Assembly (NCBI GenBank): GCA_958496175.1
Contig: OY292275.1
Location: 49,677,701 to 49,741,700, forward strand
DNA from: Sisyra terminalis
Lineage: Eukaryota; Arthropoda; Insecta; Neuroptera; Sisyridae
Reading direction: 5' to 3'
DNA: 64,000 nucleotides
Both the position numbers and the translations under genes were made by a program. This document shows, piece by piece, positions 10,125 through 61,786 of this stretch. The notes beneath the pieces are model-generated. The model was not told the origin of the DNA. It did not search any database and was given only the letters and a program-made list of their open reading frames with translations. Position 1 is the first letter of the stretch, and each line of letters opens with the position of its first letter.

Positions 10125-10167
10125 TCTCAACGTTTTGTTGGTATTTATTTCCAACTTCTTCAGGAGA
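10125..10167 (-). ncRNA. Hammerhead-ribozyme-like motif, left arm of element C
   Basis: Read on the minus strand: TCTC, CTGAAGA, A, GTTGGAA, loop ATAAA, TACCAAC, AAA, ACGT, T, GAGA. Stem I (TCTC/GAGA) is perfect, stem II pairs 6 of 7, and the CTGANGA core is intact. The conserved G12 after stem II is A, which should abolish catalysis. One extra A sits between the core and stem II, as known from the chrysanthemum chlorotic mottle viroid plus-strand hammerhead. Confidence 0.6.
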
Positions 10168-10326
10168 ATTTTTTATGTTAACATCCTCGTTGTAAAAACT
10201 GGCTTTTTAACAAGATTTTTAACAAGATAACCGAGTGAATACGTTAGTGATAATAATAATGACACATACATGATAGTATTACTCTTGATTTATTATTGAT
10301 TTATTATTGATGTTAACATCAAAAAT

Positions 10327-10369
10327 TCTCATGAAGAAGTTGGAAATAAATTCCAACGAAACGTTGAGA
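10327..10369 (+). ncRNA. Hammerhead-ribozyme-like motif, right arm of element C
   Basis: The order is TCTC, ATGAAGA, A, GTTGGAA, loop ATAAA, TTCCAAC, GAA, ACGT, T, GAGA. Stem I (4 bp) and stem II (7 bp) are perfect and the GAAA side is intact. The first core base is A instead of C. This arm and the left arm carry different single core lesions, so the two arms diverged from an intact motif. Confidence 0.65.
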
Positions 10370-10439
10370 TAATTTGAAAAATAACGTCAATTATTTAAAT
10401 TCAAGTTCCCAAGAACATTATAAATTATTTGATTATTGT

Positions 10440-12190
10440 GTTTCTTTATTAAATAAGATATGCATTAAAGTTAATCTCATGTAAGTGAAAATTCAAATGC
10501 TTACTAAGGGTGAAAAAATAGGGGATAACTATCCGCTTTTACACTAAATTACGAACACTATTATCTCCGTTCATAAAAAACGTCAGTTCGATTTGTTTTT
10601 ATAAAATTTTAAGGCTTTAAAGAGCTTTCAAACGATGGTTTGAAAATAAATAAAGCATTTTCTTACTCCCGGAAAATTGTGATGATACTTTTTGTAAAAG
10701 TAGTTTCATTACCACGACACCTCCACGATTAAAAATTAATTTGAGATTTCCCAATTCAAATGGAGCTTTATTGGGTTCTAATAAAGCATGTTCAATAGGG
10801 AAAATTCCAATTGTGGTTAATAAATAAATATCCAAATGGGAAATTTTCACAAGAAACAAAATTATAAGTATCAGTTTTTCTTGGTAGCTATTGGTAAGGG
10901 ACTTTAGTAGGAAAGTCGAATGCAAAAAAAAAAACTTTTCCAGATTTTCCTTCTTAGGTTTTGTGTGAGATCGGAGTGGGAAACCACACCGAGAAAAATA
11001 AAAACTATTTTTTTTTAGTTTTTCTTAAATCAATGCCAGATGGGACCTAGCTGGTCCAATATATAAATAATAAAAAACGGTTGTAATCGAAATGGTTTAA
11101 TGATGCTATTAATAATAACTGGAATGAAATATATGAAATGTTTCATATGTTCGTTCATCGAACACTTATTACTCGGAAAAGTAAAATATTAAATTTCAAA
11201 TTTAAATATTTTAAATGATCTTCTTAGTTAAACATTGTCCGGAAACTTCAAAAGTTTTCTGAAAAATAGAAAAATAATCAAAGAACTTTCTGAAAATGAG
11301 TTTTTGAAAATTTAAAGTTATTTTTCACAATCGAGTATGCAAAGCTATTTAATACTAATATAAATTTTCATAAACAGTATAGCGCCGAAAAAAATTGGAA
11401 AAACCAGTTGACATTTTTGTCAAAACTCATATCCAGTGATGTCTAGTGATGTATCAAAATTTTGTGCTACAAACAATTCAATTAATTTTACTAAATGTTT
11501 TCCAATCGTCGGAAAATTAAAGAATACGTTTTGTATGGCTGGCAGAAATTATATTCTTGAATAATCGTTTTGGATTGTTTTTTAAAGAGCCATTAATCTA
11601 AAAAATATTTTTACATATTCTCATATATCAGATGAAAATGTAAATTGCTACATTTGATATTCCAAATAATAGACTTTCGTAATCATAAGTATTAGCCACT
11701 TACAATTAAAAAATGAAATCGTTTTAACTCAATATAGAATTTATGAAAAAAGAAATTGGAAAGTGGAAAAATAATCCTTTTAAATTTAATAACATAGTTG
11801 TCAAATCAATGCAACTAACAAATTTTGAGTCGGTGCCAAACTATCAAGTATATGAATTCTTAAAAGTATGGTTTAGTGACCACTGAAGATTAACTTTAAA
11901 ACAGTTTTAGTAATATGCGAAACCTATTAAAATAAGCTCTAAATAATAAATTCGTTATTTTGATAGTTTCGTAAGTATATTTGGTACCGTCTCAAAATTA
12001 TTAGGGGAGACAAGTCATAAATACTAAAATAGTTCAGTTCATTTTTTGCTTTTCAGCTAGGTTCTATTTATTTGTTTAAGTTTTTAACATGTATTTTCCA
12101 TTTATGTAAATGGCAAAAAGTTCAAAAACATATTTAAATCTGAATTTTAACTGTTTAGAGTAAAAAATTTGAATCTTTAACTTAAATGAG
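10440..12190. other. AT-rich sequence, no feature recognised
   Basis: A minus-strand open frame of 102 codons (10617-10925) is present but shows no motif or signal and its composition matches random AT-rich sequence. Nothing else stands out. Confidence 0.4.
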
Positions 12191-12191
12191 C

Positions 12192-12332
12192 CTATTTGTG
12201 GTCAAGTGGTTAAGATAACGGCTCCAAAACTAAAAGGTGTTGGGTTCGATCTTCGATTCGAGCAAATTTTCGATATTAAAACTGATTACGGTTTCTTCTT
12301 ATATAGCAATTAAAAAGAAATAAGTCAATTCA
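12192..12332 (+). mobile_element. tRNA-derived SINE, copy 1 of 4
   Basis: An A-box-like GTGGTCAAGTGG and a B-box-like GGGTTCGATCT lie about 40 bases apart, the layout of an internal RNA polymerase III promoter, followed by CGAGCAAATTTTCGATATT, which is shared with the 14.4 and 60.9 kb copies. It does not fold into a full tRNA cloverleaf with an acceptor stem, so it is a SINE and not a tRNA gene. The 3' part is shortened relative to the 60.9 kb copy. Confidence 0.65.
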
Positions 12333-12334
12333 AA

Positions 12335-14368
12335 ATTTGAAAATATTTTGTAAATTTAAGATTCTAATATATGTTTAAACTATTTATTCTCATTAAAAAT
12401 AGCTTAGATTCTTTATCTTACCTAAATCAAGCATAATTGAACATTGAAAAAGAAAACAATAACTCTTAATCTTCAACGAATGAATATTCATTTTCAATTA
12501 AAATAAACTTAAAAGTTCATTATTTCGAGCATCCATTTTCAATAATCTCTGTAATCTTAAATAACGAATATTGATTAAAGAATTAACTACCGAACCCGTT
12601 ACATAACCGTAAAGAATCAAACCTTCAACCTTTTAGGATTAAAGTTAAAGATTAATCCGAGCTCACTTCCTTTTAAAATCAATAAATCCAAAAATTCTCC
12701 ATCATAATACTTCATAAACAGACTTTTCGGGACTAAGTCCGTGGAGTAGTGAGAGGGTGGAAAAATGTAAGACATAATAATTCTATTTATTCTTGGATTG
12801 AGTTGAAGGGAAAAAATATATGTTATACAATAGAATTTGATGATATGGCAGAAAAAGTCGGAAGAAAATCTGATATTGTTGTCTTCGTATCAAACTAAAA
12901 AGATTTATTGTGTTTGCGTCATAAAAGACGTTTTGATGAATGGAAATCTGTCTCGTTATTGTAACAATTCACGAATAATATTGATGATTGGTTGAGCAAT
13001 TGAAACCGTTTTTCAAAGATACGTTTTGGAAAAGTGATTTTTCTCTTAGTTACTTTGAACGAAACGAAAGTCCGGCCCTGGGACACCTCGAGGTACGTTG
13101 TGAGTAAAGACAAGTATCGACAGAAGCAACAAAATTGGTTAAATCTAACAGTATAACAGTGTAGCACCTGCGACTTATTTTTTTTTCTTTATTCTACGTG
13201 GAGTTGGAGCGCTCGTAGTCGTCCATATCCTGGTCTTATTATGTAATTTATTTACACCCTCTCATCCTCCATGGCACCAAAGTCCCAGCAAGGCTGCTTC
13301 GGGGTAAATTATTATTGTGTTGTTGGTATAAAGATAATATCATAACTTTGTAGAAACACAATATTCGTGCTGTAATCTACCTGGATAGAAAGATTCGTGT
13401 GAAATTCCGTCTCTAACCAAAGTGCTAATGCTAAACTACATTAATGTGGTTTTATCGCTTCATCGTTAAAACTCGAAATTGAACTTGGAAGATTTTAAAA
13501 ATGAACTTTGTGTAGAGATAAATCGATTAACTCACCTCTCAAGAGACTGGAAAAATTGATTTTAACACTAAAATGAGTCGTTTTTTACCATTGAAATCAA
13601 ATTGAAATTTTATCAAATAGAGAATATTACGATATCTTACCGCATTTCTTTATAAGACTGCAAAAAACCGATAACGGTTGTAATGTATTAAAGATGATTC
13701 CAATTGAGAATTTTTAAAAAAAAAATGCGTCGAATCATATTATTTTGGTTGCAATAGTTTAGTTGCATTGACATAAAGCACACGTATAGTATAAATGGCG
13801 GTTGTCGGTTTTCCCCGTAATGCTAGTTTTGTTAGTTCATGTATAATGCAAGAAGGAAATATCTTGGAACTAGCCAATTTACAAAGCTGCACAGTCATGC
13901 GAGCATAATGAAACTTAGCGAAACACATGGGATCATTTTTTATCGCAATGAAATTATAACTAGTGTGATCTTGTAAGAAAACTATGATCATATTTTTTTT
14001 TAAAAATACCTCTTTGATACAGTTTACAGCTATATTACAAAGAATGGTCTTAATTTTAATACACTTTCTTTATTCTTTGAGCTAATATTGTCCAGAAAAT
14101 TTAAAATAAATATTTGTTGTAAATGTTTTAGACTTGTCAAGATTCAAACTCGGGTTCGTGTTCGTAACTATGTATATGTCAACAAGGAAAACGTTATGAG
14201 GATATGTTACAGTTAAACATGCAACCTAAACACAGACAGTTAATCATCCAGCACTTACTCATTTTTCAAACAAATTTGACTAGAATTGCATTAGGCTTAT
14301 AAATCAAAAAGCCAGGGTGTATCAAGGTGCGAAATGTTGTATAAAAATTATAAAATCGCTGATTTAAA
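12335..14368. other. AT-rich sequence with a GC-richer patch at about 13040-13310
   Basis: No gene is recognised. The patch includes CGGCCCTGGGACACCTCGAG and CCATGGCACCAAAGTCCCAG and is low in A/T runs; it may be a conserved non-coding segment. The open frames at 12919-13167 and 13740-13991 on the minus strand show no family motif. Confidence 0.35.
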
Positions 14369-14370
14369 AT

Positions 14371-14518
14371 CTCTCCAAAACTGGTAGCTGTTGAATCTGA
14401 ATCTCATATCGAGCAAATTTTCAATATTTCTTGATATACCTACGAGTTCTTATTAATCCTAGAGTTGTTAAGGACTATATTAGTTATCAAACGACGGTAA
14501 ATAATAATGAAAAAAATT
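14371..14518 (+). mobile_element. tRNA-derived SINE, copy 2 of 4, 5'-truncated
   Basis: CCAAAACTGGTAGCTGTTGAA, GAATCTCATATCGAGCAAATT, CTTGATATACCTACGAG, TTAATCCTAGAGTTGTTAA and ACGACGGTAAATAATAATGA follow in the same order as in the 60.9 kb copy. The A-box is missing and the B-box has decayed (TTGAATCTGAATC). It ends in an A-rich tail. Confidence 0.65.
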
Positions 14519-15002
14519 GTCATCAATGAAAACATTACAGCTCCATGACATTCCAAACGATGTCAAACATTACATCATTACAAAGAAACACGATAATCGT
14601 TATGGTTGCAATGTAGGGGAAATCCTAATCCTGCGCCAATCTTAATCACCTTTATTTCGTGTAAATAAATTAGATTTCAAGTACCCCGTAGTAGTATCTT
14701 AGAATTAAGTGGATGAAAGTTGTTAATAAATAGTTTTTATAGTAAACTAAAGAAAGGATTTATTTCTTCAAAAAATAAATGACACGCTAACCACAAATAA
14801 ATCCGTAACTATGAAAAAAGTTTCTCTGTTATACATATGAACGCACGTTAGAAGTTATATTATGTAAAAGAAGAGTTTTTGGGGCTAGAGCAATTTCCGT
14901 TGCATCTAGAGATATAAATTATACATCGATTTTTTCAAATATCTATATTTCGTTCATTAACATCGATGTTTTAACATCAAAGTACTCAATATATAGATGA
15001 TA

Positions 15003-15050
15003 GATCGTTCTTCATGAGTGATGTTTTGTGAACGATCATAAACAGATACC
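15003..15050. repeat. Short hairpin
   Basis: GATCGTTC (from 15003) and its exact reverse complement GAACGATC flank about 20 bases. It is a small inverted repeat just upstream of the nested palindrome at 15083-15170. Confidence 0.4.
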
Positions 15051-15082
15051 TCTCTCAGGTACATGTGTAGATTTGTGGACTT

Positions 15083-15170
15083 CATCAGTTTATAATATAA
15101 GCGTTAGATTATAAACTAACGGTAAGTTAGGTTAGATTTTGATCTAACGACATCAAATTATAAACTGATG
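15083..15170. repeat. Nested inverted repeats
   Basis: CATCAGTTTATAAT (15083-15096) pairs with ATTATAAACTGATG (15157-15170), 14 of 14. Inside are two further hairpins: GTTAG...CTAAC (15103-15120) and GTTAGAT, loop TTTG, ATCTAAC (15131-15148). The three stems together could form a three-way structure. It may be a small foldback element or a folded RNA; no target duplication was found. Confidence 0.55.
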
Positions 15171-15179
15171 CAGTTTACA

Positions 15180-18100: not shown

Positions 18101-18520
18101 TACTGTTTGTAATATCAGCACGTGTATCAAATAAAATTAGTAATTTTACGGTAGATTTCCTATTCTATCTCTCATGCATCGATGTACAATATTGAATTTA
18201 AATTATGGAAATTTCGTCTCTGTTTTCGAACTCGTAATTTACATCGCTACTATGAGCCAATGAAAGAAAAACAATTGTGTTATGGTAATTGAAGTGGTGG
18301 CAAAAGGGGTGCACACAATGCCAATTTTGCTCTGTCGGAACTAATGATTTTTGAATAAGTAAAATTATGTTTATTTTGTTTCTTTCCGTCTAAAAAAAAT
18401 ATTTTAAATGAATTAATTTGAAATTTTCCACTAAAAGTTCAATATTCGCAGATACTATGCACTACCAGCATAAGTATGCTTTATTCAAAAATGTATAGTA
18501 TTTCTTTTGGTCTATGCAAT
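15180..18520. other. AT-rich sequence with a GC-richer patch at 17830-18060
   Basis: No gene is recognised. The patch has overlapping open frames on both strands (17874-18134 plus, 17888-18130 minus), neither with a motif, and a hairpin TTTCACCC...GGGTGAA near 17850-17873. It may be regulatory or an exon fragment; I cannot tell. Confidence 0.35.
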
Positions 18521-18521
18521 G

Positions 18522-19486: not shown

Positions 19487-19580
19487 ATCAACAATTATTT
19501 GCCACCTGACAAAGACAGCTAACCACTGTTGAAACGTGTAGTGGAATAGAATAAAATAGGTCTACGACATCAATAATTAT
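19487..19580 (+). mobile_element. 70-bp hammerhead-only insertion (element D) with 12-bp target duplication
   Basis: ATCAACAATTAT (19487-19498) and ATCAATAATTAT (19569-19580) flank a 70-bp unit at 19499-19568; they differ at one position. The unit is a complete hammerhead-like fold plus 24 bases of A-rich 3' sequence and nothing else. It looks like a severely 5'-truncated retroelement copy whose 3' end carries the ribozyme, or a very small independent retroelement. Confidence 0.55.
19502..19544 (+). ncRNA. Hammerhead-ribozyme-like motif of element D
   Basis: The order is CCAC, CTGACAA, A, GACAG, loop CTAACCA, CTGTT, GAA, AC-GT-GT, A, GTGG. Stem I (CCAC/GTGG) is perfect, stem II is 5 bp with one G-T pair, stem III is AC/GT with a two-base loop, and the cleavage-site base is A. 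The essential G8 of the core is A (CTGACAA), as expected from CpG decay of CTGACGA. This copy is probably inactive. Confidence 0.6.
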
Positions 19581-20469
19581 AATAAATATTTATTTAAAAA
19601 AACTAAGATCGGTGTCGAGGGTAACGTAGAGCCATTTACTAATGCTTGAGCCATTAATTGTAACCACATTTTCAAAATTATTGGCTCCAGAGCCGGAGTC
19701 TTAATTAATTAATATCAGTACCCCAACCCTTATTACTACAATGACATTGTATTAAAATTAACGATAACAGCTGGCTAAGATCCAATAAGCAGAAACTAAT
19801 GTAAATCAATTTGGTTTACTAAAATACTATTCTTTGAATAATTATGTGTGATATTTAAATTTTGATTTCCTCTTTTTTACAAATTTCTTCAATTTGAAAC
19901 TGTCTAGTGTTCACTTTAGTATACAAAAAAATCGAGTAAAATCATATAATAGTTCTTTACTTTTGATGATTCTTTGGATTTTACAAATTACTATTTGATT
20001 TGGAAGGATAATGGTTTTATTTAAATAAATTTTGAAAACCTTTAATTTAGATAGAGGGATCCAAGCAACAATTACGGACTTATCATTACTGTTAAGTTTA
20101 ATTTTGAATATGACGCCAATTTCGTAATAAACAATTGAACAATGTTTAACTAAATTCATGTAGTTGCGGAGCACCCAGTCTCAACTTGTATAGTGTAATA
20201 AGAATAAAGTTTATTTCTGCATTTAAGTTGTGTGTGATATTTGTTGGATTCATAAAACTACTGATTATGAACCGAGGATAGTCCAGGACAGCTCAGGAAT
20301 AATAGCAGTGACAGCAGTGAGAAAAACAATCTTTGGTAAACTTAAAATTACATTAAAAGGAAACATAACCCCAAAATCCGGCTTGCTACAATTTTGCAAG
20401 GTTTTATTCGGGTATGAACTTAGAAATTTTTTGTAAAATGACCTTAACTAATCAAATGTTTCTGATTGA

Positions 20470-21016: not shown

Positions 21017-21640
21017 AAATATTAGAATATTAATAAGATAAATTTCGTAGTTTTTAGGTTCAGGTCGAAACGTATAACGTGGAAGTTTAAATGTGACTAA
21101 CAGTTTTATTGGTAAACAATAATATATACGAAAGGTTGAATATTGTAGCAATTTTATTTAAATTCTAACACTAAGTGCTACAACTATAATAAATATGGTC
21201 ATAAACCATATACCGTGACAATATCGAACTGCCAAATTTTTAATCTCTTTTGAGCCGCAATTGTTAACAATAATCTCAGCGTTTCCAAACGAGCCATAAG
21301 AGCAAAATTTTGATAGTAATTAATGCCTTTGTAATTAATGCCAAACACACACTTATTCCTAAAGTTATCTTGAGTCCTTATTATCGTATTTCACTACAGA
21401 ATCGCCAAACCAATCTGGACCGCAAAATCTATTGGAATATTAAATAGGTAGTTTTAAATTTTGTAGTTTTTAGGTTCGGGTCGAAACGTATAGGACGAAG
21501 GTTTGAATGTGGGTAACCGCTTTATTGGTAAACAATAATATAAACAGAAGGTTGAGAATTGTAACAGATATTTTAATTTTAACACTAAGTGCTACAATTG
21601 TAATAAATATGGTCATAAAAGTCCAGAATGAAAAACTAAA
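21017..21640 (+). repeat. 414-bp tandem duplication inside the Copia remnant
   Basis: The stretch from about 21017 and that from about 21433 share GTAGTTTTTAGGTTC, GGTCGAAACGTATA, TTATTGGTAAACAATAATAT and CTAAGTGCTACAA, at a fixed offset of 414 bases. Both copies include the gag zinc-knuckle codons. In the first copy the second Cys of the knuckle is Tyr; in the second all visible Cys and His are kept (CYNCNKYGHKSPE) until a stop at 21629-21631. Confidence 0.7.
21590..21628 (+). pseudogene. Copia CCHC zinc knuckle, second copy
   Basis: The codons give CYNCNKYGHKSPE, a retroviral-type CCHC knuckle missing only its last Cys because of a one-base shift that produces TGA. The knuckle is in a different frame from the protease that follows at 21650, which confirms a frameshift at this point. 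Confidence 0.65.
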
Positions 21641-21649
21641 ATCAGGGAT

Positions 21650-21959
21650 ACACAACAAAAGAAGTTCTTCATATGCCACTGTATTTGAGGTGACATCTTC
21701 TCAAGATATTTGTTGGTATGTGAATTCTGGTGCATCCTCACATATGACAGATAAAAATTTGCTAATAAATCAGACAATTCCTAGTATTCGAAATATAAGG
21801 GTTGCAGACAACCACGTATTATCCGTGCAATTTTCAGGACAAGTGAGCCTAGATAAATATAATGATGGGGTTCAAAACAAAGTGCTGTTTCCGAATGTTC
21901 TGTTGGTTCCAGAATTTGTTTTGACTAATTTTAAAAATGATCCTCTTCGACATTTGTAG
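21650..21959 (+). pseudogene. Copia aspartic protease domain with mutated active site
   Basis: The reading frame 21507-21959 contains WYVNSGASSHMT, the Copia protease active-site block, where the catalytic Asp is replaced by Asn (codon 21723-21725). The domain continues with VADNHVLSV, a Gly-Gln strand and VLFPNVLLVPEF, the usual end of this protease. The frame runs without a stop for about 100 codons but the first part of that open frame (before about 21650) is out of the element's original frame. Confidence 0.75.
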
Positions 21960-23925: not shown

Positions 23926-23929
23926 TGTC

Positions 23930-24190: not shown

Positions 24191-25160
24191 TATTGCAATG
24201 TTTGCTCAAATGCTTACCGTTAAAATGAAATCTCGAATAGGGCAATGAAATAATTCCAACTTTATCACAATTATACAATAAGACACATTGTTCCAACCTT
24301 TGGAAATTAATATTATTAATTCAACACTCAATACGTTCGTCCCAAATATTATAGCTCTCACATAAATCAAATCAAATAGACCAAAAGGTTAATAATAAGG
24401 TGCTGTAAAATGATATTTGACGAAACGAGAATGCAACATTTTGAATATTGTAACTGGAGCCATTTGTGCTCGATGTTCGTTGGCTTCGTTATAATATTTG
24501 CGTCTCTGAATCTCTATTAAATATTCATGTGGGACTAATAGGGTTAAATCCATTGCGTACTTATTTACTTTATAGTAATTTGCTACTAAACAATTAACAC
24601 CAAAACAAAGTTTATTAACATTATATAAGTCACGCCTAGACAAATATTGAACCGTGAAGAAAATCTAAATCCCATAATAGCACGCCTAAAGGCCAAAATA
24701 TTTCTGGTCAATACTTTTTGTTTGTAAATAATATCATATTAAGTGTTATCTAATCTATTTTTGGTTTTAATCTCTTAATAAAATTATTTTTCAATAATTG
24801 TTTAATAAAATTAAATTCATTATTTTTCAATTAAGTTCATTTGGGTTCCGCTTCGGAATCCGGAGATAGCTTCATCAAAAAAAAATATTTATGATTCCCG
24901 GTGAATTATTATAATTTTTATGTGTATTTTTTTTAAGTCACTACCATCAATCATTAATTTAAACTCGATTATGTAAAATGGCAAATATTAAAATTTGTCT
25001 GCCACAAGTAGACCAAAATAGTTTACACCATATAATTTCTATACCTTGAGTGTGCCATCGAATAAAAGACGGGGTTTTATATTAATTTTATGGCAACTAA
25101 ACCCTCAAGGATGACTTATTTTTTGGCGAGAAAACCCAAAGGACAACAATTATTCTTTAT

Positions 25161-25449
25161 TAAATAAGAAGACAATCCAGGATATTTAAGGTCGTTTTTT
25201 TTTATTTAATTTTTTTTAATATTCAAAATAGCTACGTTTCGTTACGTATCGTATAAATTTATTAAAATTTATTGAATTTAAATTGAAACTATTATATTTT
25301 TTGTGATTCTAAAAGCCTGATGAAGCTACGATACGTAACGAAACGTAGCTAATTTGAATATTAAAAAATATTAAATATAAAAAACCGATATTAAACAACC
25401 TGAATTGTCTTCTTATTTAATAAAAGCTGAGATCTGAATTTTAACATCT
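25161..25449 (+). mobile_element. Foldback retroelement with intact hammerhead core (element A), 12-bp target duplication
   Basis: ATTATTCTTTAT occurs at 25149-25160 and at 25450-25461, a perfect 12-bp direct repeat. The left arm (about 25161-25256) and right arm (about 25325-25425) are inverted copies sharing AAATAAGAAGACAAT, TTTAATATTCAAA and TAGCTACGTTTCGTTACG. A short extension (AAGCTGAGATCTGAATTTTA) lies only outside the right arm, and it is present, inverted, in element B at 61.5 kb. There is no coding capacity. Confidence 0.75.
25314..25350 (+). ncRNA. Hammerhead-ribozyme-like motif with fully intact core (element A)
   Basis: The order is AGC, CTGATGA, A, GCTAC, loop GATAC, GTAAC, GAA, ACGT, A, GCT. 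All conserved core bases of a hammerhead (CUGANGA, GAAA and a cleavage-site A) are present. Stem I is 3 bp, stem II is 5 bp with one C-A mismatch. Stem III would be the palindrome ACGT, which cannot close as a monomer but can pair between two molecules, as in known dimeric hammerheads. The left arm keeps only the 3' half of the motif. Confidence 0.7.
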
Positions 25450-26139
25450 ATTATTCTTTATGTCCTGTTTGTCTTTTATAAGGTACTATACCTCACATAC
25501 GACTGTAATGTATGCCCGCAGCTATTTGCAAAGAAAGAATTGCCGCTATTGTCGAATTTTCGACTCATTTAGTGTTAAATCAAAATAGTTACCATCCGAG
25601 AATAACTGATTGATAAAATTTGCAACAAATATGCAAAAAAACACCTTGAAAAAGAGCTTCTATTTAACGTCAAAAAAGCTTGGTTTGAAAGAAATTGGTT
25701 TGAAATTATGCCTCAAAATCGTCCACCTAAACGTCTCAAAAAATAATCGAGGCTGATAAAGAATTAAAATAATGCCTAGAAGATTTTCACCTTAATGTTT
25801 TTTAATTAGAAGAAAGAATTTTGCACTAGATGAGACTTGAAGCCCTTCCTTGAAATTTTGCACACTATAAAAAAGGTTTGAAGAAAATAGACCAAAGGGA
25901 ATACGTTTCCTTGCAGGGAAAAACTATCATTTTTCAAAAATGCCCTCACTTGAAAAGTCTATTTTTTCGTAGGGGATTTAAAATTATAAGAGAAACCAAA
26001 AGTAACGTTGTTTCTGGACCTATTGATTATCAATTGGTACTCAACAGCTTATAAACTATTTGAAAGTTGTACTAAACATATTTTATGATTAGAGTGGTAT
26101 ATTTATTTTATATAGATATAACTAACTCGTAAAAGATTA

Positions 26140-37110: not shown

Positions 37111-37292
37111 ATAAAACAAAGTTGATTTATTATTAGAAACAAAAACTTAGGGTCTTCTTAAAAATTTAAACTCTGTTTAGTAAATATATCTGAAAAGGTT
37201 AAGTTACGTTTATAAGTGAGCCTTAAGTTTTTTGGCTTTCACATATTGTAAACCTGAAAATCCGAAATACGTATTCACAAATAAATACATTA

Positions 37293-37780
37293 GTGAGTGA
37301 GTATCCCTACCAACGTTTTAAATTCGTAAGTGGGGATAACAGAGCGCATGCGCATAGCCCATTCTGCACGGCCGTACGGCAAGATAGCCAATTTATATAT
37401 AAGAAAGATTGTTCCTTGTCGAACATCACTAAAGGGCAAAAATACGACAGAAGAATGAGGAGAAAGTTTCCTCAGAATCTGGCTGCTATAATTTTAAATC
37501 CTAGTAGATCTAAAGCCAAATTGGTGACAGACCCCATAACAGACCACTATAGTTTGAAAAATCATCTTCATACTAATGGGTTATTGTTGGGTCCTTCAAT
37601 ATGTAAATTCTGTTAGGCGAAGGATGAAATTGCTTCTCATATTTAATTTTAATGCAATACTCGTTCACTATGGCATCTAAAAAAGCTGGGAGTCTCCGAT
37701 TCTACTACTAGGCAAGTTATTTAGTATCTTTTTCACCGGCTGCTGAAGTATGTTTTGCTTCTCGGCTTACAAGGGACTAA
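37293..37780 (+). pseudogene. Non-LTR retrotransposon C-terminal (RNase H-tail) remnant
   Basis: The open frame 37293-37616 ends SRSKAKLVTDPITDHYSLKN, HLHTNGLLLGPSICKFC, stop, AKDEIASHI, and after two more stops CNTRSLWHLKKLG. This follows the tail of Jockey-type non-LTR proteins: a Gly/Asp-His...Leu-x-x-His-Leu-x-x-x-Gly segment, then Cys-x-x-Cys, Glu-x-(Ala)-x-x-His-(Ile) and a final Cys. In-frame stops replace conserved Cys/Gly codons. No RT domain is present nearby, so it is an isolated fragment. Confidence 0.6.
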
Positions 37781-51175: not shown

Positions 51176-51181
51176 TGATAC

Positions 51182-52180
51182 ATGATAGCTTTCTTAGATC
51201 TTAGAGTGTTAGCTTTCTTAGATCTGGCAAAAGCTTTTGATACTGTTAATCATGAGATACTGTTGAAAAAACTCTGGAGAAAAGGGATCAGAGGTCTTCC
51301 GCATCAGCTAATTCAAAATTACCTAACCCACAGAGTGCAGTGCGTTAAAGTTGGCAATGCTATGAGTGATTATAAATATGTAAGAGTTGGAGTTCCGCAA
51401 GGAACTATTCTAGGACCATTATTTTTTATCTTGTATATTGACGATATATTTGATGTAATACCGAAAAACAACTTAGTTTCTTATGCTGATGACACAGCTG
51501 TGTTATGTTGTGGTAGGAACTGGGGAGAGGTTAATGTTCATTTATCGAATTGGTTAAAAAAATTGGATACTTGGCTAAGAAATAATCAATTATCGTTAAA
51601 TACAGATAAATCTACCTTTATTACTTTTGGAAGCTATGTAGATAGTATACCAGTTAAATTTCAACTGTTTATTAGGGATAAGGAACTAAGAACAGTAAGA
51701 AGCTGCAAATACCTTGGTATATATTTTGACTGCCACATGAAATGGAATATTCATGCTATGGAACTTGCAAAAAAAATCAAATATTTTACTTTCCTATTTT
51801 ATAAATTAAATAACTATTTCCAAGCACCTGTTCTAAAAACATTTTACCATGGTGTTTTTGAAGGCATGATTACCTATGGAATTATAGCGTGGGGTGGGGC
51901 CTACGACAACTCGATAAGACAACTAGCTTACATCCAAAATAAGTTAATTAACAAAATATGTAACAACAATCGATTGACTGCGCCACTGAAAATAAAAGAC
52001 TACTTTATAGTTAGAGCTCTTAGTTTTTATTATAATGACTGTAAAAAACTTCATGGTGAAAGACTGAGTAAGACTAGATCTAAGCAGCTGGTATTGCCAA
52101 AAATTAAAAAAAAACTATTCAAGCCAAAAGTGCTTACTACGTTGCGATTAAGTATTTTAATATGCTACCTGAAAACATAA
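51182..52180 (+). pseudogene. Reverse transcriptase C-terminal part, non-LTR copy 1
   Basis: The 332-codon frame begins at RT motif A (FLDLAKAFDTVNH, residues 12-24), then GVPQGTILGPL (70-80), YIDDI (85-89) and the catalytic YADDT (101-105), followed by the thumb and a YGIIAWGG segment common in Jockey/CR1-group elements. The fingers region and endonuclease are missing. The duplicated AFLDL at residues 3-7 comes from the junction repeat. A frameshift in the A9 run near 52105 replaces the true C-terminus, whose continuation (MLPENIKLL) is in another frame. Confidence 0.85.
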
Positions 52181-52331
52181 AATTACTGATCTGTTCCAAA
52201 AAGATATTGGGGAAAAAGCTGGGAAACTGGATTTCCAACTCTAGAACGTAATTTTAGAAAAAATAGTTTTAAGTAATATTGTAATATATCTTTTTTAAGT
52301 TTGTATTATTGATTTGATAAATTTTGTAGTT

Positions 52332-52384
52332 CTTCTGGTTCTATGAACAGGTGTAACGCACCTCTATAGAACTTCCACCAGAAG
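52332..52384 (+). ncRNA. Conserved 3'-terminal hairpin of non-LTR copy 1
   Basis: CTTCTGG pairs with CCAGAAG, TTCTAT with ATAGAA, and AGGTG with CACCT around a small loop. It lies directly before the A-rich tail. The same fold with compensatory changes is at 54250-54300 in copy 2. In other non-LTR elements such 3' hairpins are bound by the element's own reverse transcriptase. Confidence 0.7.
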
Positions 52385-52391
52385 TAAAAAG

Positions 52392-52415
52392 AATAAATAA
52401 ATAAATAAATAAATA
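52392..52415. repeat. (AAAT)n retrotransposon tail
   Basis: About six AAAT units close non-LTR copy 1; a shorter, more degenerate AATAATAATAAATAAT tail closes copy 2. Confidence 0.85.
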
Positions 52416-52449
52416 TGTAATGTAATGTCTCGCCTGATCTAGATTATAT

Positions 52450-54080
52450 TATAGGTAATGAAGAGATTATCTCCGATAACAATACTATTGCTAATGAATT
52501 TGTCAAATTTTTTAGCAATATTGGCGTTGATCTAGCTAAGAAAATAGCATACGAACCCGTAAACATAGCAAAAAATGTTAAGTATAACCCAAATAGCATT
52601 TTTCTTACGCCACAGATTGCTTTGAAATCGAAAAATTAATAACTGAAATGAAAATTAAATCAGGTGGCGTAGATGGCATTGGCATAAAAGTCTTGAAACT
52701 TATTGCTACAGATATAAGCGCTCCTTTGGAGTATATTTTTAACAAATGCATTAACAGAGGTATTTGGCCTACAGCTTTGAAAAAAGCCGATATAATACGT
52801 ATATACATAAATCTGGAGATAAACATTTATCTACAAACTACAGACCTATCTCGCTCATTTGTAACTTAGCTAAAATTTTTGAGAAAGTTATCTACAGTAG
52901 ACTCTATGATTTTTGTGTTAAAAATAAATTAATTTCTGATCATCAATTTGGTTTCGTTAAAAACAGAGGCACCAACGAAGCTCTTGCAACCACTTCGAAA
53001 TATATATACGATAATATTGATAAAAATATACCTACGGTTTTAGTTTTTCTAGACCTAGCGAAGGCTTGCGACACCGTGAATCACAAAATTTTATTAGATA
53101 AACTTTGGAGACTTGGTATTAGAGGTAATCCTCATAAACTATTCGAAAATTATTTAACTAATAGAGAACAACGTGTTATTATCAATAATAGTATTAGTAA
53201 GACTAATACTGTTAAAGTAGGTGTTCCTCAAGGAACAATTCTGGGCCCACTGCTCTTCATTTTGTATATCGATGATATTTTTAATTGTCTACCTGAAGGG
53301 ACTCTAGTTTCATATGCGGATGATACAAATATACGCTGCTCGGGCAGTACTTGCGCTGAAATCAACCTTATTTTAACTCGATGGTTGATCAAAATTGACA
53401 ATTGGTTAAGAGAAAATCAGTTGTCCCTCAACATAGATAAGTCTACGTAAATTACGTTTGGTAGTTACATTGATAGCATTCCTGATAATTTCCACCTTAA
53501 AATAAATAATTTTCAACTTAAAAGAGTTGTTAATTGTAAGTATCTGGGACTAATTTTCGATGCGCACATAAAATGGAACTTACATCTCTATGAATTGACA
53601 AAAAAAATAAGGTACTTTTCATTCATATTCTTTAAACTGAGAAAATACTTAAGCCCCTCAGTACTAAAAACTATTTATCATGGGTTATTTGAAAATATAA
53701 TCAATTATGGCATAATTGCATGGGGTGGGGCTTATGAAAATAGTCTCAGGCCATTGACTACTATCCAAAAACGCTTTATTAATTATTTCATCTCACGCAG
53801 TATTGTTGATATACCCCTTGGTATCAAGGAATCATTTATCATAAATGCTTTAACATACTACTATTATGAGTGTAAAGCCCAATATAATAATAAGAATAAA
53901 CAAACTATATCTAATTTGTTATCGCTGCCTAAAACTAAGAAAACTATCAGCACTAAAAATCAAAATCTTATCGCGATAAAAATTTTTAATAAATTGCCCA
54001 ACCATCTCAAAACACTTAGTTTTAGGCGAAAAAAACTGAGGAAAATATTAATACGCACAATGGATACCTACAGCGACTAA
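52450..54080 (+). pseudogene. Reverse transcriptase of non-LTR copy 2, frameshifted
   Basis: Segments in order: KSGGVDGIGIKVLKL (RT motif 1 region), HKSGDKHLSTNYRPISL (fingers), FGFVKNRGTNEAL, FLDLAKACDTVNH (motif A), GVPQGTILGPL, YADDT (catalytic), NQLSLNIDKST, stop TAA, ITFGSYIDS, CKYLGLIFD, YGIIAWGGAYENS, and a basic C-terminus ending at 54080. In motif A the conserved Phe of the AFD triplet, which contacts the incoming nucleotide, is Cys. The part 52764-53450 and 53595-54080 are in one frame; the N-terminal part is shifted. Confidence 0.85.
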
Positions 54081-54137
54081 ACTGGCATTATTTAATTTTA
54101 AATTAAAATTGTATTTATTTATGCTATTGGTAATTCT

Positions 54138-54197
54138 GTTTTAACTTTGTATCTTTTAACTTTGTAACTTTTAACTTTGTTACTTTTAATTTTGTTA
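54138..54197. repeat. 15-bp minisatellite, four units
   Basis: Four consecutive 15-base units of CTTTTAACTTTGTWA with a few substitutions lie in the 3' UTR of non-LTR copy 2. Copy 1 lacks them. Confidence 0.85.
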
Positions 54198-54249
54198 AAC
54201 TGATTTAAATACATGCAATGATACATTGCACTACATTACAATTGTAGTA

Positions 54250-54300
54250 TTCCAGTTCTATGTACAGATGCTTTGCATCTCTGTAGAATGCCTACTGGAA
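54250..54300 (+). ncRNA. Conserved 3'-terminal hairpin of non-LTR copy 2
   Basis: TTCCAG pairs with CTGGAA, TTCTA with TAGAA, and AGATGC with GCATCT around TTT. Relative to copy 1 the outer stem has T-A to C-G and G-C to A-T changes, and the inner stem a G-C to A-T change, all compensatory. Confidence 0.7.
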
Positions 54301-54321
54301 GTAAAATAATAATAAATAATG

Positions 54322-56780
54322 ATACCGGCTGTTTGACATAAACCGGTTTTCAAGGAATGAGGATGCAAAAGGTTTTTCACGATAGTAACAAAGTGGAGAA
54401 AAGTCAAGAAAAATATAATGTTGTTGGATGGACTTTATTAAATGTTGGGTCAATAAAGTGAGGCCGAAACAAATATGTGAACGTTCCTACGCAGCTTTTT
54501 TTATCATCTCATATTCCTATTAGAATCGGCGATCGTACCGAAGCTATTTGTAAAATAATATCTTTGATATTCCCATTTCTTGAGCTGGTTTTTTAGATTG
54601 AATCGGCAAAATCGAATGTTACAAAACGAGTCGAAGCGAGACGAGAAACGAAACGGGCTTCAAGAGGAATATGAGGAATGTGCACGGATTGAACAAAGCG
54701 ACACACTCGTTTTTTATGTTTGCTAGCTACTGACCTATTTTCGATATCAAAACATTAGTACGAATAGTGTAAGTGTTCGAAATTCCCTGTTTATGCATAC
54801 ATGAGGCAAGTTCATACTCGCACCTCTCAAACCCCATTACAATATACCCAATTCCGTCCAAGTCCACCCCACACCCGACCCAACCAACCCCCAGTCGTCT
54901 GATGCGACATGTGAAAATACCAGTTGTACCTTTTTCTTCGGCTTCACAGTAACAAATTGAAAAATGATGTATTATTTCCATATAAAAATTGAATGAAAAT
55001 AAATGGGGAGTTTTGTCTGCCATGTGTCTCGACGTTTTAATAATTTTTCCTCGAATTAAATTCAAATTCGAGGCGAGTTCATTCTGCAACTCCATTGGGT
55101 CAGTTTAACTTATTTAAACTTATTTTCAAAAGTGGCCGCATAAAAAATTATGATAAATTCAGAACGTATGGAACACGGAAATGTGGGGTTATCTGTTGGA
55201 AGGATTTACGAGGTTTTAAAATGGAAATACCACGCAGCTATAAAAATATGATGGGACGAAAATCGATTCGTCCGCATCTTATATTTTAAATAACATTTAA
55301 AATTCAATTTTATTACAAAACACGCTATTACAGAAAATAGTGCTAAGCTACAGTATAGCTAATACAACGTTTAGTTCATATTTGTGCAAACTCTATTAAA
55401 CAATCCAATTTTACATTAACTAAGTAATCAATAAACTGCATTACCCATCCTAAAATTTTGATGCTAAAGATTACATACATTTGTTACCAAAAGTACAGTA
55501 ATGGTAATTTAAGGCCTTAAGATAAGTTAATGCATTTTGGTGTTTTAAAACGGCTTATGTTTCTTTTAGAACCATAAAATCTAGCAATGTCTCATTTTCC
55601 CCTTTGATTTCTATTCGTGATTTTTTTATTAATTTTTAATTCTAATATTGTATAGTATTTTTATTGAGGCTACATTTTCATTATGAGCCGATTTATTCAC
55701 GAATTAAAATAAAATCAAATTAGAAAATGTAACGTTGTCAGATTTGACAATCCTAAGAGGGACAAAAGCTCTTAAAATACCCATAGCTTTTCCCTTATAA
55801 GAAAAATTCTGATATTGTAGAATTCAAGCTCCTATCGAAGCACTAGAAGCATTTGAAGAATTTTTTTACTGTACAGTGTGCTACTCATTATAAACAGATC
55901 AGTGGAAACCATGGAAACATTTTATAATGTATTTTATCTCATTCTCTAGCACGTAAAATCATATTGGGAACCTACTTTGGTCACGACGCCTGGTGGCCAA
56001 AAAAATTACTAGTTTTTGTATGCTCTTTTATATACAACTTTATCAAGTAGTAACCCATTATAATCATAAAATCAAATACCAATTTTTTAATTGAAAGAAG
56101 AGTTATTAAATTTAGTCCTTGTATAAACAAAGGAAGAATTTACTATGGTATGATTGGTTAAAGTAGTTAATTACAAAGAAATTTAGAAAATATAGAAATA
56201 AGTTTTCTTATTATTCTCTAGTCTGGCATCAGTTTTGTTTTCGTCAAAACTTTTTCAGGAAGAAAGCAAAATTTTTTTTCTACTTTCCAATCTGACCCTT
56301 GCATTTCATGAAGCTACCCATAATGATAAAAGCAATTTAAAGTGCTCTTCCAGAACAAACGACATACGCCAAATCGTGTATGGTGAACTCTAGACTATCC
56401 AATATGGTTTAATTATATAGTTGAAATTCAGATATTTAATAATAAGTTTATAGATACATAATGCTTGATTATGGAAGAACTGGGTTTCGTGCGATTGTAC
56501 AAATTTCAATTTTGCGGTTGTGTTGTACATTGCAATAGTGTGATAGTTTTTGGAAAAAGGTTCATTCGGGAATCAAAACAATGAGATGGGATTCCTACTA
56601 ATATTCAAAAATCTAGACTCTTAACTACTGTTATTTTGACGCGAGTATTTTAATAAATTTCCACTTTTTTAGTCATAATTTAGACCGATTTTATTTAACT
56701 TGGTGATTTTTTTTATTTATGTATAGATGCTTATTGATTTATGGATTATTTGGTTCACTGTTGGTATACCTACCGTAGGT
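54322..56780. other. Unique sequence with GC-richer part at 54500-55290
   Basis: A 122-codon minus-strand frame (54727-55095) is the longest non-transposon frame in the window but shows no domain; its Gly-rich middle comes from a C-rich run on the plus strand (CCCACACCCGACCC). No splice or start signal supports it. The rest is AT-rich with nothing recognised. Confidence 0.35.
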
Positions 56781-56789
56781 ATACGCAAT

Positions 56790-57056
56790 AGGCCATACTC
56801 TTTTTAGATATTTATAAATATTTTTTGAAAATTAATTGATTATTACATAGCACTATTTTATTCTTTGCAACAGTTTATTAAATAAGTCTTTTTAAAGTCG
56901 ACAAAATAGTGTTTTTAAGTATGATTATGTTTTTCGTAAAAGAAATAAGAAAAATAATAATTTTCATATACCACTACAAATAACAAATTTAAAAAGAAAA
57001 TATAATTTACACCTACGTTACGCAGACGAAGTTGCGGGGATCAGCTAGTATATGAG
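56790..57056 (-). repeat. Inverted relative of the 42.8 kb dispersed repeat, truncated
   Basis: On the minus strand it starts ACTAGCTGATCCCCGCAACT, then GTAACGTAGGTGTAAATTAT, TTTGTAGTGGTATATGAAAA, TTTTACGAAAAACATAATCA and AAAAAGACTTATTTAATAAAC, matching 42812-43040 closely. The 3' half present at 43.1-43.55 kb is missing here. Confidence 0.7.
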
Positions 57057-57059
57057 AAA

Positions 57060-60000
57060 ATTGTAAACAAAACTCTGTTAAAGGCACAAAATTACTACTT
57101 GCATTTTCATTATTTTACCACATTTAATCAAGTAAATGGCAAACTTCAAAAAAAATTTCTACGTTAATAACATTATCTGATCTGTATTTGATTCAATCTA
57201 GTCGAAAATTTATTTTAATGTTAATAAAAGTAATTTATAATAATAACACAAATTCATTGTAAACTAATGGGCAATTGTTTGGATGCACACATTACGTAGC
57301 CATGTTTCTTAAGCTGCGCCTATCGGTAAGTTCTCAATAGATTTATGTGTTTATTTTGTTTTATTGCCACTTTTTCGTTTCCCTAACTTTCAAATTATAA
57401 CGATACTAAAGAAGTTTTTTCTTTAAAAATGCAAATTTACGTTTTTTTTTCGGTTTCTAATGTTACTATTACGCCTGCCTACCTTGAAGTCAATATTTTT
57501 TTATTCAACTTCGACTGCTTAATTTAACGAAGTCTTATTTACTTTAGTTTCATGATAAATGATAAATAAATGAAGTTTGAAAAAACGTATTAACACAAAG
57601 CATTTGTTAAACGAAAAAAAAATAAAGTTTTTACACCAAAAATGAATTTAACAAAAATTTCAAAGAATAAAAAGTTTAATACACTGTTCAACATATGGAC
57701 TTTATAAGTAATAAGAAATATACGTTTGAAAATATTTTCAAATTTTCCAAAAAATTTTCAAGAAAAATATATGAAAGTTGAAAAATACAATGTCAAAACG
57801 TTTGAGACGTAAATTGAATTGTTCTTTTTGTAAAAATCAGTTATTTGAAATGGAAAAGATTTGATTTCCTGTAATTCTTTTTTTGTGATTAAATTTTCCT
57901 TTGGTTGAGTTCAAAGTAAAGGGTTCCAAAATAAAACTTAAAGAATTGTAGAGGAAGTGTTTTGTTAGCAGACTTTTGATAGTAGAATTTAACAACAGAC
58001 ATAGCTTTTTTTATTTCACCATTTTGTCAGTGTATCAGTATTTATTTCGTCATTAGAAGATGATAATAAATTATCTTTCTAGAGTTATCTAACGAATGAA
58101 ATAAATTAAATTAATGTTTTTAAAAATAACGCATACGTTGGGGATTTTCACAGCACATATTAAGTATTTACTGTTCAATTTTAATTCTAAATCTCGTAAT
58201 CAAAATGGATAAAGTTGAAAAGAAATTTCGACTGTATTTTCTTAATAATGCTACAGCAAGTTGCTCTGCTTTCGATTAAATTTGGATCAATTGTCCAAAT
58301 TGAATTTTATCTTCGCTTTTGTCGAGCATCTATAGAGATTTGAGACGTCTTTGAGGCGATACATTAAAACTATTACATTTCCGTAGATTGGTTCTTGTAG
58401 ACAATAAGTGCGGAAATGGAACGTAGCTGGTTTTCAATGTTGGTCAGTATAGGAAATGAAGGAAGTGGCCTGGATGAATTGGGAATGGGTGGAAAGGGGG
58501 CGAAGAGCAAATACCCAGGTGCCCACTGTGGATGTTGAATCGTAGTGCGAATTCAATTTACCAGATATACACATAAAGGGGAAGTGTTGAAATACGTCAA
58601 TGTCAAACCTGCTATGAATATAAAATGTGAAACTCTTTCAAAAACACCATCGGATTTGAGCCGTTCTGAATTGCACATTTTTTATTTTATTCCATTATGA
58701 AAATCAGGAAGATTATTTCGTTTTCCTTTCAACATTTTTCAAAAAATCCGATAAGATTTCATGTTAGTTTTCTTTGACGAAAGTTAGATAAAAGAGTTAT
58801 CGATCAGTAGTGAGGTGAAAGACAAATAGCAGCTCTATATTGATGGATGCGAGAGTTTCGCTTATCGTACGTCGGACATTAATTTTGTTTATCTCCAAAT
58901 AAATTATAGTTCACATTTACTTAGAACAAAGAGCGATTAGACAAAAAACGGAAGTCGATCAAATATTCATAACAATCCAGCCGGGGGAAATTCTTTGTAA
59001 AATTGAATCGAATAAAATGCTTATTGATCGATTTGCATTGAATTTAAGCTGCTTTTTATCGCAAGGTTGCGTCCTGGTTGATCCTTTGTACAAAATGCAA
59101 ACGATGTGAACATTTTTATTGAAATTGGTTTCCTCGTTCGTTCGCGACATTTGAATTGAAACACTAGGAGGTGCATGCCGGGCCAATTCCAATTCAAAAT
59201 CGAATCGAATCGTTTTATAAAAATGTCAACATTTCAAACAAACTTTTAATAAGATTTTCAATAGTTATGATTCGAATTCGGAACTGTTGATACAGCTACA
59301 GTCAGCCACACATCTTGGATACAGAGTTGAGTTGAAAGTTATACGATTATGTCAGAACTCCAAATATTATTGTTCCAGTGACATTCATGCGTGAATTATC
59401 AATGCATAACTAATTTGTTCTTAACCAGATGTTTCCCGCTCCGACAGTTATTCGCCGAATACAAGCATCATTTGTATGATGTGTTGTAATTTAGAAAGTT
59501 TCTGATTTGTGTAGAGATAAGTTAAAAACCATGTCATATTGTTTTCGGAGCTTCCACGAAAGAAGATTTAATTAATGTTTACGTTTGGGATTTTTCAAAA
59601 GGAAAAACTTAACATTTTGTTGTTAAATTTAAATTTATTTTCTTTGTGCTCCATTATAAAAGCTTGAAACAATTGAAATTATTTCAAACACATACATTTT
59701 AATGTTTTCAACTTTACAAAAGATAAAGTTTAATTATTTTGGAAACATTTTTAATAAGAATTAAGTTACTTTTTAAGTAATAAGGTACATCATATTTATG
59801 CAATAGTGAACTCCGGCTTTTGTATTCGAAAGTATTCTACATCTTTTGTCAATTTCTTGTATATTTAGTTTTAGACACTTATCATAATATTTCAAGACTT
59901 AATTTTAATTTAATAAATTTAAAACTAAATGAAAGGAGATATTGTCTCTTGTTCATTTTTGTAGATGAAAGACAAATAAATATATAAAATAAATTCTTAA

Positions 60001-60905
60001 AAAAATAATGAAAGTCAGCCGGAAATATCAAAATCTTAATAATTAATTCTTTTTGTTTCCTTTTGCATCATTAATTATCTAAGCGTTATTTAATTTTTAA
60101 AGTTCAAAAAATGGTACTCCAGGCTGCAAAATCAGCTAAAGACTCTTGTGTAGTATGTGAATAATCAAAAATGTTTATAATACTTACATAAACTTAACCT
60201 CAGTGAATTTTTTGAAGTAAATACTTGTTTAGCATCATGGTGACTTGAAGTTTCATGAAACGAAAAAGCGACAGTTAAAAGACATAAAAATATAAATATA
60301 TAAGATTTAACAAACGAGAGAATTAAATACAAAACTTCCAAGTGTTTCTTATGTATGTGCGCACCTGCGTATTATCTTGCTTGGGAATAGTCGTTCTAAC
60401 AACCGTGGTGAATTGTGTATTATTTACATAAACATTTCATTATTTTAATTAAAAACATTTTTAAAGTATGTCGAAAACAAATACAGAATATTATAGTGAT
60501 TATTGGAAAAAAGAAAAGATTACAAGACCGCAAAACATTTATCAACGGAAATTAGAGGTATCGCAAATTCTTAACAAGATAAAATTCCAATTATTTTAAG
60601 GGGAGAGTTTAATGTAAATATTGTATTAGATACAACGATCTCTTTGATTAAGTCTTTGGACATCAAATTTGTTTTAAAAATGTGTAGGAGTTGCACTGTA
60701 TCAACATCAAGATCAAAAATAGTAAATCAAGACGATATATTTCGTAATTATGAGTAATTATCGATCATTCAGCTGTGATGGGCCGTTGGTGTGAACCCCT
60801 CCCCTATGTTTTCTGCTTAGTTTTTCCACTCAACGTAATTACTCGTATATCAACGATATATCTAGTGACCAAATCGAAACTTCAGTATTTATTTCAAGTA
60901 TTTAT
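57060..60905. other. Mostly unique sequence, no gene recognised
   Basis: Between 58140 and 59280 the sequence is less A/T-run-rich and includes a GC-richer patch at 58430-58560 (GGGTGGAAAGGGGGCGAAG). A 77-codon minus-strand frame (58959-59192) has no motif. These may be regulatory blocks. Confidence 0.35.
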
Positions 60906-60910
60906 AGCGT

Positions 60911-61100
60911 ACTGGTAACCAAGTGGTCAAAGTGGCTGTTCCAAAACTGGTAGATGTTAGGTTTGAATCTGGTATCGAACAAATTATTCGATGAAAGAAT
61001 TCGAAAAATTCGATATTACTTGATATACGAACTTTTATTAACCCTAGAGTTGCCAAAGACCATGGAAGTTATAAAGCAACGGTAAATAACAATAAAAAAA
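60911..61100 (+). mobile_element. tRNA-derived SINE, copy 4 of 4, most complete
   Basis: This copy has an A-box-like TGGTAACCAAGTGG, a B-box-like GGTTTGAATCTGG about 45 bases later, then the SINE-specific part GATATACGAACTTTTATTAA, CCCTAGAGTTGCCAAAGACC, TATAAAGCAACGGTAAATAA and an A7 tail. It is the best reference for the family, about 190 bases long. Confidence 0.75.
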
Positions 61101-61638
61101 TCGTTCATTTCAAATAACATACATATGGTCTACGAAAGTCTAGAATCCTCTTACCACTTATACGCTAAACAACGACATTTCACAACTATATCTAATGAAA
61201 AAATGTAAATAAACGAGTTACGCTAATTTGGAAAACTTTTATATGATTATTACGTGTGAACGGGAAATGATTACGATCCACATTAACACCTCATCTATAG
61301 ACAACCACAGTAGGTACTCGTATATTATCCGTGATTCAATTGATACATTTTTATGTTCTTTTAAAAACAATATCAATAGTAATAATAATAATTCTCTTTG
61401 TCTGATGATCTTATTAATTTTTTTAGAGTTATAGAAAAATTCCATAATGGAGGAATTTAAAGGAAATAGGATATGAAATAATTTGCTTTTGACATCATTG
61501 AGCTTTTACTTTCTTATTTAATTTTAAATTGTAGATGATAAAATTCAGATCTCAGCTTTTATATTTTTTTAAATAAGAAGAAAATTCAGGTTATTTAAGA
61601 TTTTTTTATTTTTTATTTAATATTCTTATTATTCAATT

Positions 61639-61675
61639 AGCTACGTTTCGTTACTAATCGTAACTTCCTCAGACC
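61639..61675 (-). ncRNA. Hammerhead-ribozyme-like motif with intact core, left arm of element B
   Basis: Read on the minus strand: GGT, CTGAGGA, A, GTTAC, loop GATTA, GTAAC, GAA, ACGT, A, GCT. The CTGANGA core, GAAA and a cleavage-site A are all intact and stem II is a perfect 5 bp. Stem I is 3 bp with two G-T pairs. Confidence 0.7.
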
Positions 61676-61749
61676 TCTTGATTCACAAAATTAAAATATT
61701 TTTATTTATTGAATTTAAATTAAAAATATTTTAATTTTGTGAATCAAGA

Positions 61750-61786
61750 AGCTTGAGGAAGTTACGGTTAGTAACAAAACGTAGCT
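61750..61786 (+). ncRNA. Hammerhead-ribozyme-like motif, right arm of element B, two core lesions
   Basis: The order is AGC, TTGAGGA, A, GTTAC, loop GGTTA, GTAAC, AAA, ACGT, A, GCT. Stem I and stem II are perfect, but the first core C is T and G12 is A, both C-to-T or G-to-A changes. Confidence 0.6.

Follow-up and report, generated by a model that had tools for sequence, protein, structure and literature searches.

Six motifs in a 64,000-nucleotide stretch of the genome of the neuropteran Sisyra terminalis (contig OY292275.1, positions 49,677,701 to 49,741,700; hereafter the window) are very probably, to judge by their sequence, hammerhead ribozymes or the decayed remains of hammerheads, situated in the pseudo-long terminal repeats (pseudo-LTRs) of Penelope-like elements (PLEs). 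They belong to three repeat families, A, B and C, and the window insertions of families A and B are short non-autonomous copies that consist of hardly more than two pseudo-LTRs placed head to head. An earlier reading of the window from its letters alone (the sequence-only reading) had proposed ribozymes or their fossils and had pointed to PLEs. The first proposal is supported by the majority sequences of the families, which keep core bases now partly missing from individual window copies; the second is borne out by the anatomy of the elements and, less firmly, by coding pieces near them.

Motifs and repeat families

On re-reading the window we found all six motifs at the positions and on the strands at which the sequence-only reading had placed them, and its division of them into four insertions and at least three families is correct:

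10125..10167, minus strand: family B hammerhead motif; A replaces G12
10327..10369, plus strand: family B hammerhead motif; A replaces C3
19502..19544, plus strand: family C hammerhead motif; A replaces G8; extra base A (T in the other 10 aligned copies)
25314..25350, plus strand: family A hammerhead motif; complete core; single mismatch in stem II
61639..61675, minus strand: family A hammerhead motif; complete core; stem I GGT/GCT; the sole window copy to pass the strict descriptor
61750..61786, plus strand: family A hammerhead motif; core altered at two positions

The motifs at 25314 and 61639 do retain every core base, as had been claimed, but stem II of the former (GCTAC/GTAAC) has one C.A mismatch, and stem I of the latter is not AGC/GCT but GGT/GCT, with G.U pairs. 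We scanned the window with a descriptor drawn from general hammerhead rules (stem I of at least 3 bp, CTGANGA, 0 or 1 extra base, stem II of at least 4 bp, GAA, ACGT and the second strand of stem I). With the extra base allowed, five of the six motifs are recovered at up to two core mismatches; 25314 is missed because of its stem II mismatch. The number of sites is one without core mismatch (61639), four at up to one and five at up to two, compared with means of 0.0, 0.0 and 0.05 (maxima 0, 0 and 1) in 20 dinucleotide-shuffled windows. A fixed pattern matches the window three times and 100 shuffles not at all.

Contig 11 of the 376.6-Mb assembly (11 contigs; 17,488 bases in this one) encodes mitochondrial proteins; its COX1 shares 97% identity with that of Sisyra aurorae, followed by Nevrorthus at 94%, and this one gene suggests a spongefly or a near relative. 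The assembly was searched with A and B patterns at up to three mismatches. Family A (25314, 61639 and 61750) has 2611 forward and 2639 reverse matches and family B (10125 and 10327) has 526 and 533; the reversed-pattern control gave 0 for both. Family C (19502) has nine genome matches including the window copy. The eight others are 75%–85% identical to it, and each begins at the motif (query positions 83–86) and extends to position 178 at most. Adding the facing copies in loci L064 and L066 gives a family C alignment of 11 sequences. The families compare as follows:

Family A: majority sequence CTGATGA-A-GTTACG-ATA-CGTAAC-GAAACGT-A-GCT; stem I AGC/GCT; stem II GTTACG/CGTAAC; stem III ACGU; extra base A
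Family B: majority sequence CTGAAGA-A-GTTGG..CCAAC-GAAACGT-T-GAGA; stem I TCTC/GAGA; stem II GTTGG/CCAAC; stem III ACGU; extra base A
Family C: majority sequence CTGACGA-T-GACAGC..GCTGTT-GAAACGTGT-T-GTG; stem I CAC/GTG; stem II GACAGC/GCTGTT; stem III ACGYGU; extra base T

The type I hammerhead core (CUGANGA and GAA) is complete in all three majority sequences, and stem III is self-complementary in each if G.U is counted as a pair. The earlier statement that pairing is kept and sequence is not holds between families, whose stems I and II are different and paired; it is not supported within family C, where pairing is no better than shuffled. One extra base lies between A9 and stem II in every family, and none of the 51 A arms or the 46 B arms lacks it. 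The core is intact in 47 of the 51 A arms and 25 of the 46 B arms; these conservation figures are biased upward because many arms were selected by their motif. Where A arms differ within the motif, they commonly do so at N7, in loop II or at the pair that closes this loop, and hammerheads tolerate change at these places. An extra A is known in a viroid hammerhead.

The minimum-energy folds of the A and B monomers consist of exactly stems I and II. The ACGU of stem III leaves no loop to close within one molecule (the ACGYGU of family C could give 2 bp), and its pairing between two RNAs is possible.

To examine the kinship of the families, one arm of each was scored against 300 shuffles. The motifs resemble one another more than shuffled sequences do (1, 15 and 14 of 300 shuffles reach the real score). 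The upstream flanks do not in any of the three comparisons (207, 285 and 296 of 300), nor do the downstream flanks of A and C (91 of 300). The families thus appear distinct, yet a distant common descent may lie behind them.

Minimal type I hammerheads of PLEs were reportedly described by Cervera and de la Pena in 2014 and by Lunse, Weinberg and Breaker in 2017. The motifs reported here share with that set the type I order, the very short stem III, dispersal in thousands of copies, a possible dimeric mode of action and a location in PLE pseudo-LTRs (PMC7761336). They may differ from the published set in the extra base between A9 and stem II, which occurs here in all three families. Known alignments do include one- or two-base insertions between CUGAnGA and the adjacent stems (PMC10085705). 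A limited literature search gave no report combining Penelope, hammerhead and Neuroptera, and none of a hammerhead ribozyme with an "extra a residue". Hammerheads in Penelope pseudo-LTRs are already published, and what we describe is a new, abundant case with a conserved extra core base.

Arms, tails and target duplications

The elements that carry the motifs in the window have the following parts:

10020..10031: left target-site duplication TTTGATTATTGT of the family B element
10032..10427: family B element, two head-to-head pseudo-LTR arms; tailed left end, untailed right end
10428..10439: right target-site duplication TTTGATTATTGT of the family B element
19502..19597, plus strand: family C pseudo-LTR remnant (the stretch common to other copies)
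25149..25160: left target-site duplication ATTATTCTTTAT of a family A element
25161..25449: family A element, head-to-head arms; tailed right end; CTGATGA half of the left-arm hammerhead lost
25450..25461: right target-site duplication ATTATTCTTTAT of this element
61520..61532: left target-site duplication AATTTTAAATTGT of a second family A element
61533..61866: family A (GATTA subfamily) element, head-to-head arms; tailed left end, untailed right end
61867..61879: right target-site duplication AATTTTAAATTGT of this element

The arms of the window elements are 80–106 nt long and 91%–93% complementary (those of the B element lie at 10106–10185 and 10309–10388). Read on the minus strand, the tailed left end of the B element has a ATGGATGAGAGCAAC-type open reading frame (ORF) start. 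The common form of the B tail carries ACCATGGATGAGAGCAACCAGGA, which looks like an ORF start.

Neighbouring arms within 1.5 kb were counted in the window and in loci fetched from the assembly. Among 47 pairs of A arms, 44 are head to head, three point the same way and none is tail to tail; the 24 B pairs comprise 23 head to head, one same-way and none tail to tail. A tail of 30–40 nt is present at exactly one outer end in 37 of 44 A pairs and in all 23 B pairs, or 60 of 67 together. If each end chose independently, about half of the pairs would be expected to be mixed. Target duplications of A and B elements are typically about 12 bp. Flanks duplicated over at least 11 bp occur in 13 of 44 A pairs and 11 of 23 B pairs, compared with 3 of 1892 and 3 of 506 mismatched flanks. 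Families A and B thus have the Penelope-type traits of inverted head-to-head pseudo-LTRs, a 3′ tail on one of them and a short target-site duplication. In family C, facing copies occur at two loci (L064 and L066).

These traits can be compared with the Penelope elements of Adineta vaga, for which inverted pseudo-LTRs, an optional 31-bp tail on one of them, duplications of 8–10 bp and an ORF start within the pseudo-LTR plus tail are described (PMC3846280). The likeness extends to the B tail, with ATGGATGAGAGCAAC as apparent ORF start. In contrast to the A. vaga elements as that account presents them, most of the copies we fetched consist of two arms without an ORF, and their numbers are far greater.

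The unmatched centre between paired arms is at most 1 nt in 13 of 39 A pairs and at least 22 nt in 17 of 18 B pairs, and arm symmetry failed to discriminate between models in these 39 and 18 pairs. B elements are nested in A elements in L024/L025 (with a 14-bp flank match, AATATAAATATATA, in L025) and in L038 (6 bp only), and some B insertions are therefore later than the A insertions that hold them. The head-to-head arms at window positions 61657–61768 and in L044, L046 and L047 score as microRNA-like hairpins in Rfam below the gathering level; the strong sub-threshold matches are of this kind and are not hammerheads. Head-to-head arms are a possible source of small RNA.

Coding pieces and neighbouring repeats

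Some family A arms have coding pieces between or beside them, the identity of which is uncertain. The order in L094/L038 is as follows: a tailed pseudo-LTR on the minus strand, a 160-aa reverse transcriptase (RT)-like frame, a 123-aa endonuclease (EN)-like frame and a pseudo-LTR on the plus strand, with a family B element nested within the copy. The EN-like frame matches the PDB entry 2wsh, endonuclease II (E = 0.0066), the sole usable match in Pfam or PDB; we take this enzyme to belong to the GIY-YIG family. The RT-like frames in L038 and L069 presumably resemble Penelope RT (SHHPISHEASVILGLLDRS...). With the L069 pieces as query, related EN pieces are found in L038 (2e-21) and L043 (2e-11), beside or between family A arms, and weaker matches in L080 (0.014) and L091 (0.084). 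These two weak EN pieces are also what was found in 20 A loci without a listed partner arm (many of which had a second arm), and no full PLE was seen there. Upstream of the family C copy in L067 lie decayed frames with GIYKI and, in a different frame, FYIGQTGRW (tblastn, E = 6.1).

In L068, two frames on the minus strand (5100–5796) lie within a family B element with arms at 4924 (minus) and 5931 (plus), and we take them to resemble mariner transposase. No Penelope frame was recognised between the same-way B arms of this locus.

Other repeats were met alongside. Two adjacent, similar RT fragments occupy window positions 51179–54080 on the plus strand (Pfam RVT_1, E = 3.7e-26 and 2.3e-33) and by their look belong to a non-LTR retrotransposon. 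A retrotransposon Pol piece lies at 21507–21959 on the same strand (Pfam Pol_BBD, E = 1.9e-10), adjoined by near-repeats at 21039–21205 and 21455–21619. The frame starting VFWLSHIVNLKIRNTYSQIN (37227–37616, plus strand) recurs in a 1.8-kb family A copy (L005/L006) and is an unnamed repeat. The first 3000 positions of the first contig (C1; locus L039) open with units of about 30 bp repeated in tandem (CTGTTTTAAAATATTCGCGGGGGGGCCTCTAAA) and containing G runs; the initial 3 kb of contigs C1 and C2 showed no runs of TTAGG, TCAGG, TTGGG or TTAGGG.

Alternatives, mechanism and significance

A number of observations weigh against the interpretation of the motifs as hammerheads of PLEs. The strict descriptor is passed by a single window copy (61639). 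The covariance-model check suggested in the sequence-only reading gave no Rfam hammerhead match in the window, at the gathering level or at E ≤ 10, and none at E ≤ 10 in six A loci and one B stretch with intact copies (locus-level scans covered seven of 94 loci); the models probably depend on a genuine stem III and on the absence of the extra base. In family C, the one family in which within-family covariation was measured, pairing is 80.0% compared with 79.7% in shuffles, and covariation is unsupported there. Sliding the partner strand gave 20%–54% pairing, although the structure had been drawn from these same sequences. Stem pairing at the shuffled level had been named beforehand as a result that would speak against ribozymes; family C covariation is at that level, yet the core and the pairing are common to three families with different stems. 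The fold of the GATTA subfamily gains extra pairs, the family C window copy folds differently, and family A contains a competing hairpin, AGTTACG/CGTAGCT. The hammerhead dimer reaches −14.5 (A) and −15.1 (B) kcal/mol, compared with −22.4 and −20.2 for other dimer folds, and because these are lower, folding energies alone do not favour it. The downstream flanks of A and B, and of B and C, show a slight excess of likeness over shuffled sequence (the score is reached by 9 and 16 of 300 shuffles), so that the families are possibly not fully independent.

With regard to the element itself, seven of the 44 A pairs depart from the one-tail rule (five have tails at both ends and two at neither). Pfam gave no support to the RT-like or EN-like frames, and the PDB matches of the RT-like frames are weak or unrelated. 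Neither an intact PLE ORF nor a coding copy linked to family B was recovered among the fetched loci. The L067 remnant of family C is presumed to be coding from its motifs. No protein homologues were found for the 120- and 160-aa pieces, a negative that says little because only proteins of similar length were considered.

Of the alternatives, the one that survives best, though it is unlikely, is that conservation concerns the long hairpin formed by the inverted arms, as a source of small or double-stranded RNA, with the ribozyme core merely inherited. The length and complementarity of the window arms would suit such a hairpin, as would the sub-gathering resemblance of whole A elements to microRNA hairpins in Rfam; models of that type, however, presumably match any long hairpin. 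Arm junctions differ widely among copies, so that no particular hairpin has been kept.

We consider it very unlikely that the elements are ordinary miniature inverted-repeat transposable elements of a cut-and-paste DNA transposon, with a hammerhead-like transposase binding site in their terminal inverted repeats. Such elements would likewise be short, have inverted repeats and target duplications and reach thousands of copies, but the ends seen here are unequal (60 of 67 pairs have just one tail), and there is no fixed duplication length (the best flank matches vary, up to 14 bp). The hammerhead core is moreover common to families with different stems and upstream flanks, some arms have RT- or EN-like pieces between or beside them, and the only transposase seen there is that of the mariner-like frames in the B element of L068, apparently a separate insertion.

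The type I hammerhead order, the low GC content and the small size of the elements also recall animal retrozymes, small non-autonomous elements with circular RNA, and similar repeats are known in insects as well (PMC7229834). Retrozymes as described in that source have type I hammerheads in small repeats; they differ in forming direct tandems rather than inverted pairs and, in the canonical cases, in having loop–loop contacts. Since all but four of the 71 neighbouring pairs are head to head (67, the other four being same-way), and the tail and the coding pieces favour PLEs, this assignment is highly improbable. A chance resemblance to hammerheads, with which the failure of the Rfam models would agree, is the least credible explanation of all, given that shuffled windows yield at most one site each and that three families share one core with stems that differ and nonetheless pair.

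The elements most likely insert by the following route. A PLE protein, acting in trans, would make staggered cuts, about 12 bp apart, in the two DNA strands. Reverse transcription would begin on both strands, in each case from one of two start points close to the 3′ end of the pseudo-LTR, with or without the tail, and two truncated complementary DNAs would join in the middle of the element, leaving inverted arms with their 3′ ends outward and a target duplication. The PLE Poseidon PAc of Anolis offers a partial parallel (PMC11167929): its hammerhead is near the ORF start, its tail lies between two RT start sites, and both strands are cut and extended. It differs in being a full element in direct tandem, where ours are mostly head-to-head two-arm copies. 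The source describes no difference between strands in the PAc start site, and this equality alone does not predict one tail per pair.

The ribozyme itself may have different roles in different copies. Where PLE copies stand in tandem, their RNA could bring two hammerheads together by way of the self-complementary stem III, and such dimers may cut RNA; the predicted cleavage site is one base beyond ACGU (beyond ACGUGU in family C). Where copies are head to head, the ribozyme faces its complement and probably has a merely passive presence as baggage. For the small copies, baggage is more likely than engine by analogy with PAc, because its hammerhead cuts in vitro only with protein and hammerhead mutants still insert in vitro (PMC11167929). 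It is also conceivable, if quite improbable, that the hammerhead has been retained for its self-complementary stem III, through which two template RNAs would be joined, giving a Penelope particle with a pair of RNAs that primes both DNA strands at once; the one-tail pairs would then be the trace of this linkage, and cutting would be secondary.

The in vivo role of PLE hammerheads has been described as a mystery (PMC7761336). In the genome of S. terminalis, three families with copies in the thousands combine an extra core base that is conserved with insertion junctions that are clean, and this coexistence in one insect makes the role testable. An optional tail on one of two inverted pseudo-LTRs had been described before (PMC3846280); its presence once per head-to-head pair, in 60 of 67 cases, constrains quantitatively the way in which the elements can integrate.

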